Positions 55,741 to 61,645 of a stretch of DNA of 64,000 nucleotides are shown here, piece after piece. The stretch covers positions 62,001-126,000 of the forward strand of contig NZ_JACIJJ010000001.1 in NCBI RefSeq assembly GCF_014199325.1, read 5' to 3'. A model generated the notes under the pieces. It saw only the letters and a program-made list of their open reading frames with translations, searched no databases and was not told the DNA's origin. This DNA is from Sphingomonas yantingensis. Its GTDB lineage: Bacteria > Pseudomonadota > Alphaproteobacteria > Sphingomonadales > Sphingomonadaceae. Positions within the stretch are counted from its first letter, which is position 1. Each line of letters begins with the position of its first letter. Position numbers and translations under genes: made by a program.

Positions 55741-57975
<2,235 letters not shown>

Positions 57976-58021: not shown

Positions 58022-58059
58022 GACGACGCCCCCGCGCCCCTCGGTTCGGGGGCGTCGTT
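58022..58059. terminator. second hairpin after katG
   Basis: GACGACGCCCCC (58022-58033) and GGGGGCGTCGTT (58048-58059) pair with one G-T wobble at the outer end around a 14-base loop. It may back up the katG terminator and insulate the riboswitch-controlled unit. Confidence 0.6.
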
Positions 58060-58128: not shown

Positions 58129-58157
58129 TTGACAGGCGTTATCCGAGCGTGTTGAAC
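58129..58157 (+). promoter_or_regulatory. promoter of the riboswitch-controlled methionine operon
   Basis: Perfect TTGACA (58129-58134), a 17-base spacer and TTGAAC (58152-58157), a weak -10 box. Transcription would begin a few bases before the conserved riboswitch sequence, as expected. Confidence 0.5.
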
Positions 58158-58161
58158 GGGT

Positions 58162-58357
58162 GCGTCAAGGTTCCCCATCCCAGGCGTGGCGATGGGGCTA
58201 AGACGGGAAGCCGGTGGCGTCCTTCGGGACGGAATCCGGCGCTGCCCCCGCAACTGTAAGCGGCGAGCGGCGGCTTCATCTCGTGTCACTGGGTGCCCGC
58301 AAGGCGCCCGGGAAGGCCGGAGCCACCGCGTTGACCCGTGAGCCAGGAGACCTGCCT
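58162..58357 (+). promoter_or_regulatory. cobalamin (B12) riboswitch
   Basis: The leader shows the conserved elements in order: GGTTCCCC start, GGGAAGCCGGTG, GGAATCCGGCGCTGCCCCCGC followed by AACTGTAAGCGG, a GGGAAGGCCGG stem, GACCCGTGAGCC and the B12 box AGCCAGGAGACCTGCC (58341-58356). This is a full adenosylcobalamin-type aptamer. It precedes a B12-independent methionine synthase unit, so binding should repress it. Hairpins between the aptamer and the start codon, such as 58396-58423, probably form the expression platform; no U-run follows, so translation control is more likely. Confidence 0.92.
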
Positions 58358-58497
58358 TCGACGCCATAACGTTCCTCGGACGGGGGTTCCTCCGGTGGAT
58401 CGCGCTTGGAAAGCGTCGATCCAAGGCGACCCACCGCCGGGATCGCCGTCGCCGGGTGCGCTTTCGCCTGACTTCCGTCCGCCAAGACAGGTGAGTC

Positions 58498-59481
58498 ATG
58501 ACGGACAGCGGCTTCAGGTTCACGATCGACAGCATCCCGTTCGACGAGGATTATCGCCCCGCCGAAAACACACGGATCACCACCAACTTCGCCAATCTGG
58601 CGCGCGGGGAAAGCCGCCGGGCGAACCTCTCCAACACGCTCGTCATGATCGACCGGCGGTTCAACGCGCTGATGCACTGGGACAATCCCCGGGGCGATCG
58701 CTATTCGCTGGCGCTCAGCATCGTCTCGGCCGCCCTCACGCTCGGCGATGGCGCGGCGGACGAACCGTTTCCGCTGATCGAGATCCTACATAGCGAGGTG
58801 ACCGACCGGATCAGTGGCGAGCGCCACGACGGCATGACCGGCAACAATTTCTCGTCCTATGTCCGCGACTACGACTTCAGCGTCGTCCTGCCCGATCATC
58901 TCCGCGCCGGGGGCCGTGACGCGCCGGAAGGGTTCGGCGACCTCCACGGCCAGCTGTTCCGGCAGTTCGTCGGCTCCGCCGCCTATCGCGACCGGTTCCG
59001 CAAGCCCCCGGTCATCTGCCTCAGCGTGTCGAGCAAGGCGGTCTATAATCGCACCGCCAACGTCCATCCGATCCTCGGCGCCGAATACCGCACCGACGCG
59101 CTGTCGCCGACCGATCGCTATTTCGAGAAGATGGGGATGAAGGCCCGCTACTTCATGCCGCCGCACAGCGTCGCGCCGTTCGCCTTCTATCACATCGACG
59201 ATCTGGTCGGCGGCTACAGCGACCTCGAACTCGCCAGCGCGATCGCGGTGATGGAGACGTTCCAGAAGATCTACCGGCCCGAAATCTACAACGCCAACTC
59301 GGTGGCCGCGGAACATTATCAGCCGAGCCTGACCGCGCAGGACTATTCGCTGACCCGCATCGTCTACGACCGGGAGGAGCGCAGCCGCCTCGCCGTCGAG
59401 CAGGGCCGGTTCGCCGAAGCGCATTTCATCAGGCCGCATGCCGAAGCGCTCCGCCGCTGGTCAGCGACCGCCGGCCGCTGA
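58498..59481 (+). CDS. DUF1852 protein, MesX-like partner of core methionine synthase
   Basis: A 327-residue cytoplasmic protein of the DUF1852 family: FTIDSIPFDEDYRPAENTRITTNFANLARG, then DYDFSVVLPDHL, ICLSVSSKAVYNRT and a His-containing MPPHSVAPFAFYHIDDL. DUF1852 is nearly always next to a short MetE-like protein. This pair has been described as MesX/MesD, a folate-independent methionine synthase system of aerobic bacteria; MesX is needed for MesD activity but its chemistry is not settled. GGTGAG lies before the ATG. It is the first gene under the B12 riboswitch. Confidence 0.85.
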   Translation: MTDSGFRFTIDSIPFDEDYRPAENTRITTNFANLARGESRRANLSNTLVMIDRRFNALMHWDNPRGDRYSLALSIVSAALTLGDGAADEPFPLIEILHSEVTDRISGERHDGMTGNNFSSYVRDYDFSVVLPDHLRAGGRDAPEGFGDLHGQLFRQFVGSAAYRDRFRKPPVICLSVSSKAVYNRTANVHPILGAEYRTDALSPTDRYFEKMGMKARYFMPPHSVAPFAFYHIDDLVGGYSDLELASAIAVMETFQKIYRPEIYNANSVAAEHYQPSLTAQDYSLTRIVYDREERSRLAVEQGRFAEAHFIRPHAEALRRWSATAGR

Positions 59482-59508
59482 TCCCCCGCATTCACGAAGG
59501 TATTTCCC

Positions 59509-60537
59509 ATGACGACCTTGTTGCCGACCACCACCGCGGGCAGCCTGCCCAAGCCCGCCTGGCTCGCACAGCCCGAGACCCTCTGGTCCCCCTGGAAACT
59601 GTCCGGCGAGGAACTCGCCATGGGCAAGCAGGATGCGCTGCGCCTCGCGGTCGACGACCAGCGGCAGGCGGGCATCGACATCCTCGGCGACGGCGAACAG
59701 ACGCGCCAGCATTTCGTCACGACGTTCGTCGAGCAACTGGACGGCGTCGACTTCGAGAAGCGCGAGACGGTGCGCATCCGCAATCGCTACGATGCCAGCG
59801 TGCCGACGGTCGTCGGCGCCGTCTCGCGCCCGAAGCCGGTTTTCGTCGAGGATGCCCGCTTCCTGCGCGCGCAGACCGATCGGCCGATCAAATGGACGCT
59901 GCCCGGGCCGATGACGATGATCGACACGCTGTACGACGCGCACTACCGAAGCCGCGAAAAGCTGGCCTGGGCATTCGCCGGCATCCTCAACGAGGAAGCG
60001 CGTGAGCTGGAGGCCACCGGCGTCGATATCGTCCAGTTCGACGAGCCGGCCTTTAACGTCTTCTTCGACGAGGCGAACGACTGGGGCATCGCCGCCCTGG
60101 AACGCGCGGCCGAGGGGCTGAAGGCCGAAACCGCGGTCCACATCTGCTACGGCTATGGCATCAAGGCGAATACCGACTGGAAGCAGACGCTCGGCAGTGA
60201 ATGGCGTCAGTACGAACGGACCTTCCCCAACCTGCAAAAGTCGGCGATCGATATCATCTCGCTCGAATGCCGGAACTCGCGCGTGCCGATGGAGCTGATC
60301 GAGCTCGTCCGCGGCAAGAAGGTGATGGTCGGCGCGATCGACGTGGCGATCCACGACGTCGAGACGCCGGAGAAAGTCGCCGAGACGCTGCGCGCCGCGC
60401 TTGCTTATGTCGATGCGGACAAGCTCTATCCCGCCACCAATTGCGGGATGGCACCGCTGCCCCGCGCGGTCGCGCGCGGCAAGCTCGCGGCGCTGGGCGC
60501 CGGCGCGGCGATCGTCCGTGCCGAGCTGTCGGCCTGA
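59509..60537 (+). CDS. core (MetE-like) methionine synthase, MesD type
   Basis: A 342-residue protein equal to the C-terminal catalytic half of MetE; the N-terminal folate-binding half is absent. LPTTTAGSLPKPAWL is the start motif. Zinc ligands are visible as VHICYG (His, Cys), ISLECRNS (Glu) and ATNCGMAPL (Cys). It should transfer a methyl group to homocysteine. Without the folate domain the donor must differ from that of full MetE, which fits pairing with DUF1852, 27 bases upstream. The B12 riboswitch suggests use when a B12-dependent synthase is inactive. Confidence 0.87.
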   Translation: MTTLLPTTTAGSLPKPAWLAQPETLWSPWKLSGEELAMGKQDALRLAVDDQRQAGIDILGDGEQTRQHFVTTFVEQLDGVDFEKRETVRIRNRYDASVPTVVGAVSRPKPVFVEDARFLRAQTDRPIKWTLPGPMTMIDTLYDAHYRSREKLAWAFAGILNEEARELEATGVDIVQFDEPAFNVFFDEANDWGIAALERAAEGLKAETAVHICYGYGIKANTDWKQTLGSEWRQYERTFPNLQKSAIDIISLECRNSRVPMELIELVRGKKVMVGAIDVAIHDVETPEKVAETLRAALAYVDADKLYPATNCGMAPLPRAVARGKLAALGAGAAIVRAELSA

Positions 60538-60571: not shown

Positions 60572-61645
60572 GTGGCCAAGGGGGACGCCCTGACACGCAC
60601 GACCGAAAGATCGACGATGAACGCCATCTTCCGCCGACTGCGGATCGACACCTATATCCTCGCGATCATGGGGATGGTGGCGATCGCCGCGATCCTGCCC
60701 GCCCGCGGCGCGGGGAAGGACGTGCTCGACATCATCGTCCACGCCGCCATCGCGCTCCTGTTCTTCCTCTACGGCGCGCGGATTTCGCGTCAGGCGATCT
60801 GGGCGGGCATCCTCCACTGGCGGCTGCAATCGCTCGTGTTCGCGACGACGTTCGTCCTCTTTCCGCTGCTGGGCTTCGGGATCGCCAAGCTCGCCGCCGG
60901 GCATCTCGACCCCGGCCTCGTCACCGGGCTCATGTTCGTTTCGCTGCTGCCCTCGACGGTGCAGTCGTCGATCGCCTTTACCTCGATCGCGCGCGGCAAC
61001 GTGCCCGCGGCGCTGTGCTGTGCTTCGCTCTCGAACCTGGCGGGCGTGGTCATCACCCCGCTGCTGGCGACGATGGTTCTGAGTGCCGGGGGCGGCGGCA
61101 TGTCGCTGGATGCGGTGGGAGAGATTGCGCTCCAGATCCTGCTGCCGTTCGTGATCGGCCAGTTCGCCCGCCCGCTGATCGGCGAATGGCTGGAGCGCCG
61201 GCGGATGTTGACGATGGCCGTCGACCGCGGCTCGATCCTGCTCGTCGTCTATTCGGCGTTCAGCGCGGGCGTCGTTGCCGGCATCTGGGGCCGGGTCACG
61301 CCGCAGAGCCTGGCGCTCGTCATCGTCCTCGACCTCGTGCTGCTGGCGATCGTGCTCGCCGCGACCACGGCGGCCAGCCGCCTCCTGCGCTTCACGACCG
61401 AGGACGAGGTCGCGATCGTGTTCTGCGGATCGAAGAAGAGCATGGCGAGCGGCCTGCCGATGGCCAACATCATCTTTCCGGCAAGCGCTGTCGGCCTGAT
61501 CGTGCTGCCGCTGATGCTGTTCCACCAGATGCAGCTCATGGTCTGCGCCGCGCTCGCCCGGCGCTATGCGCAGCGGGCCAAGGATCCCGCCCCGGCAATG
61601 ACGGCAACAGCGGCGGGCGCGCCGGTTCGCGCCCACCGCCGGTGA
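60572..61645 (+). CDS. bile acid:sodium symporter family transporter
   Basis: A protein of about 357 residues with nine or ten hydrophobic helices of the SBF-like family (PF13593). RLRIDTYILAIMGMVAIAAILPARG is the first helix, and FCGSKKSMASGLPMANIIFP the conserved crossing region. Despite the name, bacterial members carry varied organic anions. It lies 34 bases after the methionine synthase gene, likely in the same riboswitch-controlled message. AGGGAG stands 5 bases before a GTG at 60572; the ATG at 60617 would shorten it by 15 residues and is the alternative. Confidence 0.82.
   Translation: MAKGDALTRTTERSTMNAIFRRLRIDTYILAIMGMVAIAAILPARGAGKDVLDIIVHAAIALLFFLYGARISRQAIWAGILHWRLQSLVFATTFVLFPLLGFGIAKLAAGHLDPGLVTGLMFVSLLPSTVQSSIAFTSIARGNVPAALCCASLSNLAGVVITPLLATMVLSAGGGGMSLDAVGEIALQILLPFVIGQFARPLIGEWLERRRMLTMAVDRGSILLVVYSAFSAGVVAGIWGRVTPQSLALVIVLDLVLLAIVLAATTAASRLLRFTTEDEVAIVFCGSKKSMASGLPMANIIFPASAVGLIVLPLMLFHQMQLMVCAALARRYAQRAKDPAPAMTATAAGAPVRAHRR

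Follow-up and report, generated by a model that had tools for sequence, protein, structure and literature searches.

A Cobalamin Riboswitch Precedes the mesX-mesD Methionine Synthase Genes of Sphingomonas yantingensis and Probably Mediates Their Repression by B12

Introduction

Which signal governs a methionine synthase that works without cobalamin (vitamin B12), and from where does such an enzyme draw its methyl group? Both questions are raised by a locus in Sphingomonas yantingensis (assembly GCF_014199325.1), in which a cobalamin riboswitch lies before the adjoining genes mesX and mesD. We analyzed a stretch of 64,000 nucleotides (nt) containing this locus (contig NZ_JACIJJ010000001.1, positions 62,001 to 126,000, forward strand), hereafter called the window, and coordinates refer to this window unless a contig or locus is named. 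MesD requires MesX and oxygen, and neither MetF nor B12 (Price et al., 2021; PMC7857596); the methyl donor and the chemistry of MesX are given there as predictions only, and no later work on the function of MesX was found in the open-licence literature. That chemistry is a question of basic metabolism, namely the origin of the methyl group of methionine without methyl-folate or B12. The evidence presented here indicates that mesX-mesD is very probably a B12-repressed operon for a methionine synthase that is independent of both B12 and folate.

Results

A Full-Length Cobalamin Riboswitch Precedes mesX and mesD

At the gathering threshold, a single Rfam match was obtained in the 64 kb window, to the cobalamin riboswitch RF00174 (58152-58373, forward strand). 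Its cmscan score is 108.7 bits (E 2.7e-26), where the gathering score is 31.5, and it spans model positions 1-189, which is the full length of the model. The conserved core letters are present in the alignment to RF00174, as is the sequence GAGCCAGGAGACCTGCC close to the 3' end of the aptamer, which we take to be the B12 box. An initial annotation of the region, made from the sequence alone, had placed a B12 riboswitch before a pair of genes for a DUF1852 protein and a core-MetE methionine synthase, at 58162-60537. The element was confirmed, and its start lies 10 bases further to the left, at 58152. In the whole genome (3.56 Mb, 11 contigs), two RF00174 matches were found, including the one in the window.

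The two genes are likewise as described. The first, mesX (58498..59481, forward strand), encodes a DUF1852 protein of 327 amino acids that matches PF08908 with 518.3 bits against a gathering score of 25 (E 8.9e-156) over 320 of 323 model positions. It adjoins mesD (59509..60537, forward strand), which encodes a core methionine synthase of 342 amino acids with 661.8 bits to NCBIfam NF006589 (cut-off 392). MesD has the Pfam domain Meth_synt_2 (E 2e-36) and no Meth_synt_1, and thus lacks the N-terminal folate domain, in agreement with the absence of the folate-binding half noted earlier. A full-length MetE would combine both domains; neither MesD nor the genome contains Meth_synt_1. The closest solved relative of MesD is PDB entry 3RPD (E 3.5e-183, 611 bits), regarded as a MesD by Price et al. 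(PMC7857596, section 11). The ligand places named in that section were matched by motif and offset, not by superposition: the zinc set HCEC is kept as H211, C213, E253, and C312, which confirms the zinc ligands of the initial annotation, and the homocysteine-binding places as S12, E63, and D178. The protein is 79% identical to MesD of Acinetobacter nosocomialis (locus L043).

An AlphaFold2 model of MesX, built with 88 sequences, reached a predicted local distance difference score (pLDDT) of 86.4 and a predicted template modelling score (pTM) of 0.88. None of the 493 Foldseek matches obtained with this model at E 10 reached E 0.001, and the best VIA match had a Z of 3.9 (root-mean-square deviation 4.8, 120 aligned residues), with none above background. 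Most of the better VIA matches were GNAT-type proteins with a Z of 3.9 or less, alignments that may reflect a common arrangement only, and on this modelling the weak structural match does not show a new fold. No sequence relative was found in the PDB, where the best E in a profile search was 0.088. Conservation among MesX proteins is high: 109 positions of the window's protein are conserved in at least 115 of 116 sequences, and in the alignment of 88 rows the invariant residues include H150, H190, E196, C174, D124, and D126. The current Pfam name of PF08908, putative oxygenase MesX, agrees with the oxygen requirement, yet is a name only.

The Genome Encodes a Split MetH and No MetE

The initial annotation had pointed to metH elsewhere in the genome as a check and to a full-length metE as a possible explanation of B12-free growth. 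A split metH is present at C4:22401-25981 with metF alongside it on contig C4, and a single stop in the second metH match is consistent with the space separating two intact open reading frames (ORFs), the first ending at 1489 and the second starting at 1555 of locus L083. metE is absent, with no match to the MetE N-domain (Meth_synt_1, PF08267) in the whole genome (G000), and the only other match to Meth_synt_2 is weak (28.9 bits). The corrin-ring marker cobI/cbiL reached 60 bits against a cut-off of 163, so by this one marker de novo B12 synthesis is unlikely. The second RF00174 match precedes an ORF that resembles a TonB-type receptor, as read by eye against locus L006, where Pfam identifies a similar protein as TonB receptor plus plug. 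The combination of metH and metF, no MetE, no cobI/cbiL above the cut-off and a riboswitch on a TonB-type receptor is the one to expect if the pair is a backup circuit in an organism that salvages B12.

Candidate Expression Platform in the mesX Leader

Three elements of a putative expression platform were recognized between the aptamer and mesX. A candidate L13 arm, CGGACGGGGGTT (58377..58388, forward strand), has a G-run that might kiss the C-run of L5 or pair with a candidate switching strand, GACTTCCGTCCG (58470..58481, forward strand). The latter could pair with the L13 arm or, largely, with the region containing the Shine-Dalgarno sequence (CAGGTGAG) and the mesX start codon (58488..58500, forward strand). 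The L5/L13 contact is presumed from known cobalamin riboswitches. Alignment of 17 leaders, all of the Sphingomonas type, showed that the L13 arm is conserved (one base short in L009), that a near-invariant block 3' of the aptamer, CGTTCCTCGGACGGGGGTTCCTCCGG, is common to all 17, and that the start region CAGGTGAGTCATG is exact in 12. The arm in the window can form 12 consecutive pairs with 58470-58481, for which 9 of 200 shuffles were as good, and the consensus fold of the aligned leaders also pairs the arm with the switching strand. In a fold of 58374-58520 alone, 58469-58479 pairs with the Shine-Dalgarno region. Covariation did not provide proof of the platform because the L13 side is almost invariant and the pairs vary on one side only; shuffled sequences often pair equally well.

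The leader contains no intrinsic terminator-like site, which fits translational control. The sole match lies upstream of the aptamer at 58034-58055, after an ORF at 55741-57975 (forward strand) that resembles katG (catalase-peroxidase) and was named by reading its sequence alone.

Distribution of the Riboswitch among mesX Loci

Besides the window, 115 mesX loci were examined, 80 of them named loci and 35 taken from whole genomes. The 80 named loci were the best matches to the window's MesX and hence are biased to its kin; its closest MesX relatives come from Sphingomonas. In all 116 loci, window included, mesD directly follows mesX. A riboswitch directly upstream on the mesX strand was found in 35 of the 115 with our own covariance model, which was built from 16 leaders, so that 16 of the 36 direct cases (window included) match by construction. 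These loci belong to Sphingomonas, Sphingopyxis, Brevundimonas, Aureimonas, Devosia, Ochrobactrum, other alphaproteobacteria and one entry titled Arthrobacter. The Rfam model confirmed all 12 direct cases submitted to it (the window, L020, L021, L031, L037, L056, L060, L088, L091, L099, L131, and L132) and found no riboswitch on the mesX side upstream of mesX in the remaining submitted loci. A looser scan for the B12 box gave 38 of 115; the additional loci L039, L044, and L059 have two mismatches and no same-strand model match.

Some titles and copies in this collection deserve mention. L011, the entry titled Arthrobacter, and Sphingomonas aquatilis (L012) have almost identical MesX proteins, and MesX, MesD, and flavin reductase of L047, titled Bacillus subtilis, are close to proteobacterial loci; both titles look wrong. 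Genome G229 carries, in addition to an intact mesX, two fragments of the gene elsewhere, at G229:C1:2175963-2176446, and a TGA interrupts one of them.

Co-occurrence of the Riboswitch with MetH

If the switch arbitrates between MetH and MesXD, genomes without MetH should have no use for it. Of 397 genomes in the family of the window, 12 gave a mesX match, one of which (G548, locus L133) was set aside as a fragment of 73 positions with neither riboswitch nor MetH. Of the genomes with an intact mesX, the 5 with MetH all carry the riboswitch on mesX and none of the 6 lacking MetH does. The former, scored by the MetH reactivation domain PF02965, are G000, G045, G134, G566, and G774; the latter, without PF02965 and without a riboswitch in about 1.5 kb upstream, are G032, G102, G144, G558, G695, and G770. 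MetE was found in none of G032, G102, and G144, the three of these six that were searched. Of the 32 named direct-riboswitch loci, 28 were searched for PF02965, which was present in 27 of the 28 genomes. Across 49 genomes with MesX, PF02965 occurs in 44 and the MetE N-domain in 20. G417, from the same class, has MesX and MetH, and its locus lies outside the leader survey.

A MesX tree was made from 74 of 121 MesX rows, with the gamma- and betaproteobacterial rows thinned by hand. Three MetH-free sequences (L087, L089, and L128) fall inside a riboswitch-bearing clade with support 89, a placement that would fit one loss of the switch, and the other three (L090, L129, and L130) group with riboswitch-free sequences. 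The presence of the switch hints at where MesXD is a backup and where it is perhaps the sole synthase.

Divergent Riboswitches and MetR Sites

A riboswitch that points away from mesX on the other strand was detected with our own model at 10 Rhizobiales loci (L032-L036, L038-L040, L042, and L059), and the Sphingomonas loci L005, L006, and L009 carry one in addition to the direct riboswitch. Examples, all on the reverse strand, are L005 4273-4531, L006 4259-4516, L009 4293-4550, and L035 4463-4729. Two of the 13 loci, L032 and L040, were submitted to Rfam and both were confirmed. Behind the divergent riboswitch, 9 of the 13 (L005, L006, L009, L032, L033, L035, L036, L038, and L042) have a gene for a tandem 4HBT (hotdog) acyl-CoA thioesterase, assigned by ORF and shared sequence, with Pfam run on L005 and L035 only. 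Our guess is that this thioesterase relieves an acyl-CoA build-up when a B12-dependent mutase fails. A LysR regulator gene, recognized by shared sequence, lies behind the divergent riboswitch in all 10 Rhizobiales loci, where, apart from L034, it follows the thioesterase gene or replaces it (L039 and L059; in L040 it stands behind a short remnant). The best NCBIfam match of this regulator in L039 and L040 is MetR, below the cut-off (200 and 191 of 382 bits). The arrangement suggests a relay in Rhizobiales from B12 through a MetR-like regulator to mesXD.

The MetR consensus, which we took as TGAA-N5-TTCA, occurs within 600 nt of mesX in none of these 10 loci in its simple form. Among the 80 loci that lack a direct riboswitch, 20 carry it in the 300 nt before mesX, as compared to 11 of 800 random stretches taken from these loci; none of the 35 direct-riboswitch loci has it within 400 nt. 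A MetJ-like site was found in 3 of 80 loci and in 1 of 800 random stretches. Gammaproteobacterial loci without a riboswitch (e.g., L044 and L057) show a long conserved block upstream of mesX, TCATGAA ... TTCATG ... TGAAATTAAATCACTTTT ... GGCATAAA, which contains a MetR-type palindrome and 9-mers common to up to 24 of 80 loci.

Further B12 riboswitches lie within about 5 kb of mesXD at L021 61-329 and L035 7786-8050 (both forward strand) and at L039 1666-1943 and L059 3148-3425 (both reverse strand). The one in L021 precedes the large chain of a ribonucleotide reductase, as identified by Pfam, and the other three precede a glutaredoxin-type gene and nrdI (by Pfam for the glutaredoxin of L035 and NrdI of L059, otherwise by shared sequence). 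In these loci, B12-independent isozymes lie clustered with mesXD.

Neighboring Genes

Downstream of mesD lies a gene for an SBF-like transporter (PF13593, E 1.2e-95) at 60617..61645 on the forward strand; the ATG at 60617 was taken as its start, the ORF being open from 60401. It is perhaps co-transcribed with mesXD. A long match to this transporter occurs 3' of mesD in 5 of 80 related loci only (L003, L004, L005, L007, and L037, in the last behind a flavin reductase gene), and for this reason it was rejected as a conserved third gene and regarded as a lineage-specific neighbor. A 30-residue piece is found in L031.

Two other candidate partners were rejected. A flavin reductase gene accompanies the pair in Acinetobacter. 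A tblastn search with the L043 protein located it within 5 kb at 16 of the 116 loci; for 35 of these 116 (the whole-genome loci) the sequence extended no more than about 2.5 kb from the start of mesX. It is not beside the pair in the window. The genome has two Flavin_Reduct proteins, both away from mesXD. Near mesX, the LysR gene found upstream in Acinetobacter turned up again only in L065, in part in L067, and as a weak match in L125; its top NCBIfam family is GcvA and not MetR.

Discussion

The aptamer, the two genes and the genome around them point to a switch between two methionine synthases. When cobalamin is plentiful, it would bind the leader RNA and turn off mesX-mesD, most likely at the translation start, and methionine would be made by the split MetH. 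In the simplest model, which fits repression, bound cobalamin would dock L13 on L5, and the second strand thus freed would close the start site; the riboswitch would then act on translation through the competing pairs of L13 arm, switching strand and start region. When cobalamin is scarce, the leader would be open and mesX-mesD on. MesX, the oxygen-dependent partner, would provide a methyl group, and MesD would transfer it to zinc-bound homocysteine. Use of the pair when B12 is scarce, as the initial annotation had proposed, is supported by S. koreensis genetics (PMC7857596) and by RNAseq in A. baumannii (PMC12892962).

Several observations weigh against B12 repression of mesXD through this riboswitch, or against parts of that account. 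When the leader is folded by itself, the L13 arm pairs elsewhere. Of 34 leaders tested, only 6 showed an arm complementarity that 10 or fewer of 200 shuffles equalled, and a further 2 leaders have no G-run; given this count of 6, the docking model is held loosely. The alphaproteobacterial loci L054, L062, and L072 have no riboswitch near mesX by our own model. Conversely L060 and L099, probably one organism (identical MesX, both genomes 1.9 Mb), have the riboswitch and no PF02965 match, which makes L060 the one exception among the 28 genomes searched. The contrast of 5 of 5 to 0 of 6 genomes is not independent: the MesX tree yields two independent pairs, too few for any sign test to reach 0.05, and MetH goes the same way in an average of 1.2 of them. 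With only two such pairs, the link between riboswitch and MetH is a consistent pattern of one or two evolutionary events and no statistical proof. Finally, the A. baumannii DUF1852 gene is repressed by B12 (PMC12892962) although no riboswitch was found in the Acinetobacter loci examined.

Transcription termination, Rho-dependent or other, instead of control at the Shine-Dalgarno region is a possibility to which we give the smaller share of our belief: the GC-rich 124 nt between aptamer and start fold strongly (z -2.43 for 58374-58520), but the only terminator-like site precedes the aptamer and the Shine-Dalgarno region is predicted to be paired. It is unlikely that the operon answers mainly to methionine-cycle signals, i.e., to homocysteine via MetR or to S-adenosylmethionine or S-adenosylhomocysteine, with the riboswitch secondary or decayed. 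In its favor, MetR control of PF08908-metE2 is published (PMC4239095) and the MetR consensus is enriched in loci without a direct riboswitch. On the other side, none of the 35 direct-riboswitch loci has the consensus within 400 nt (no search for other MetR or S-adenosylhomocysteine sites was made in the window), and the window has a full-length aptamer followed by a block of high conservation. That MesD still uses methyl-tetrahydrofolate, with the folate site supplied by another protein, is the least probable of these alternatives. The genome does have metF, but it adjoins metH and not mesXD, Meth_synt_1 is lacking, and relatives of MesD work without metF (PMC7857596, section 12).

With B12 repression of a folate-independent synthase as the preferred account, a broader picture can be put forward tentatively. 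MesX may be a type of enzyme without a recognized solved relative, one that converts a central metabolite into a methyl donor in a reaction dependent on oxygen and independent of folate and corrinoids, and mesXD may belong to an alphaproteobacterial B12-scarcity module that comprises riboswitches on mesXD or on a thioesterase/MetR-like unit together with B12-independent ribonucleotide reductases. Given the weak GNAT-like alignments and the riboswitch-controlled thioesterase neighbor, one may speculate that acyl-CoA is the methyl source. The distribution of control elements suggests that the same need has been wired in three ways in proteobacteria, by a direct riboswitch, by a riboswitch on a MetR-like regulator, and by MetR. 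For studies of MesX chemistry, the natural B12 switch on mesXD offers a clean on/off handle.

The MesX-MesD pair and its B12-free role are already known; the riboswitch before it and the relay arrangement are apparently unreported as far as searched, no report of a B12 riboswitch on a DUF1852/MesX-MesD pair having been found in the open-licence literature, and are of a known kind of control. Among the closest known systems are the MesD/MesX proteins of S. koreensis and Acinetobacter baylyi (PMC7857596), which belong to the same two families. S. koreensis has mesD, mesX, and a split metH and neither metE nor de novo cobamide synthesis genes, and oxygen-dependent support of MesD by MesX was shown with its genes in E. 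coli (PMC7857596, section 12); split metH and absence of metE are shared with S. yantingensis. The main text of that paper, through which alone S. koreensis was compared, does not contain the word riboswitch, whereas the window's pair stands behind an intact RF00174 element. In MetR regulons, PF08908-metE2 is a well-conserved target (Leyn et al., 2014; PMC4239095), i.e., the same pair under methionine-pathway control. There the regulator is a homocysteine-responsive DNA-binding protein, mostly in beta- and gammaproteobacterial groups, whereas the window has an RNA switch for cobalamin. The A. baumannii DUF1852 gene ABUW_3198 is of the same family and strongly repressed, with a log2 change of -8.33 (also -8.07) with B12 in RNAseq (PMC12892962). 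In contrast to the window, no RF00174 element was found in the Acinetobacter loci by Rfam (L043) or by our own model (L043, L046, L065, and L067), none of which is from A. baumannii, and repression there probably takes an indirect route. B12 repression alone is consequently no proof of a riboswitch. Riboswitches for B12 control metE or B12-independent ribonucleotide reductase, so that a B12 sensor silences the B12-independent isozyme. The riboswitch described here would bind cobalamin and repress in the same manner, and differs in its target, mesX-mesD, which encodes another methionine synthase with a separate oxygen-dependent partner.

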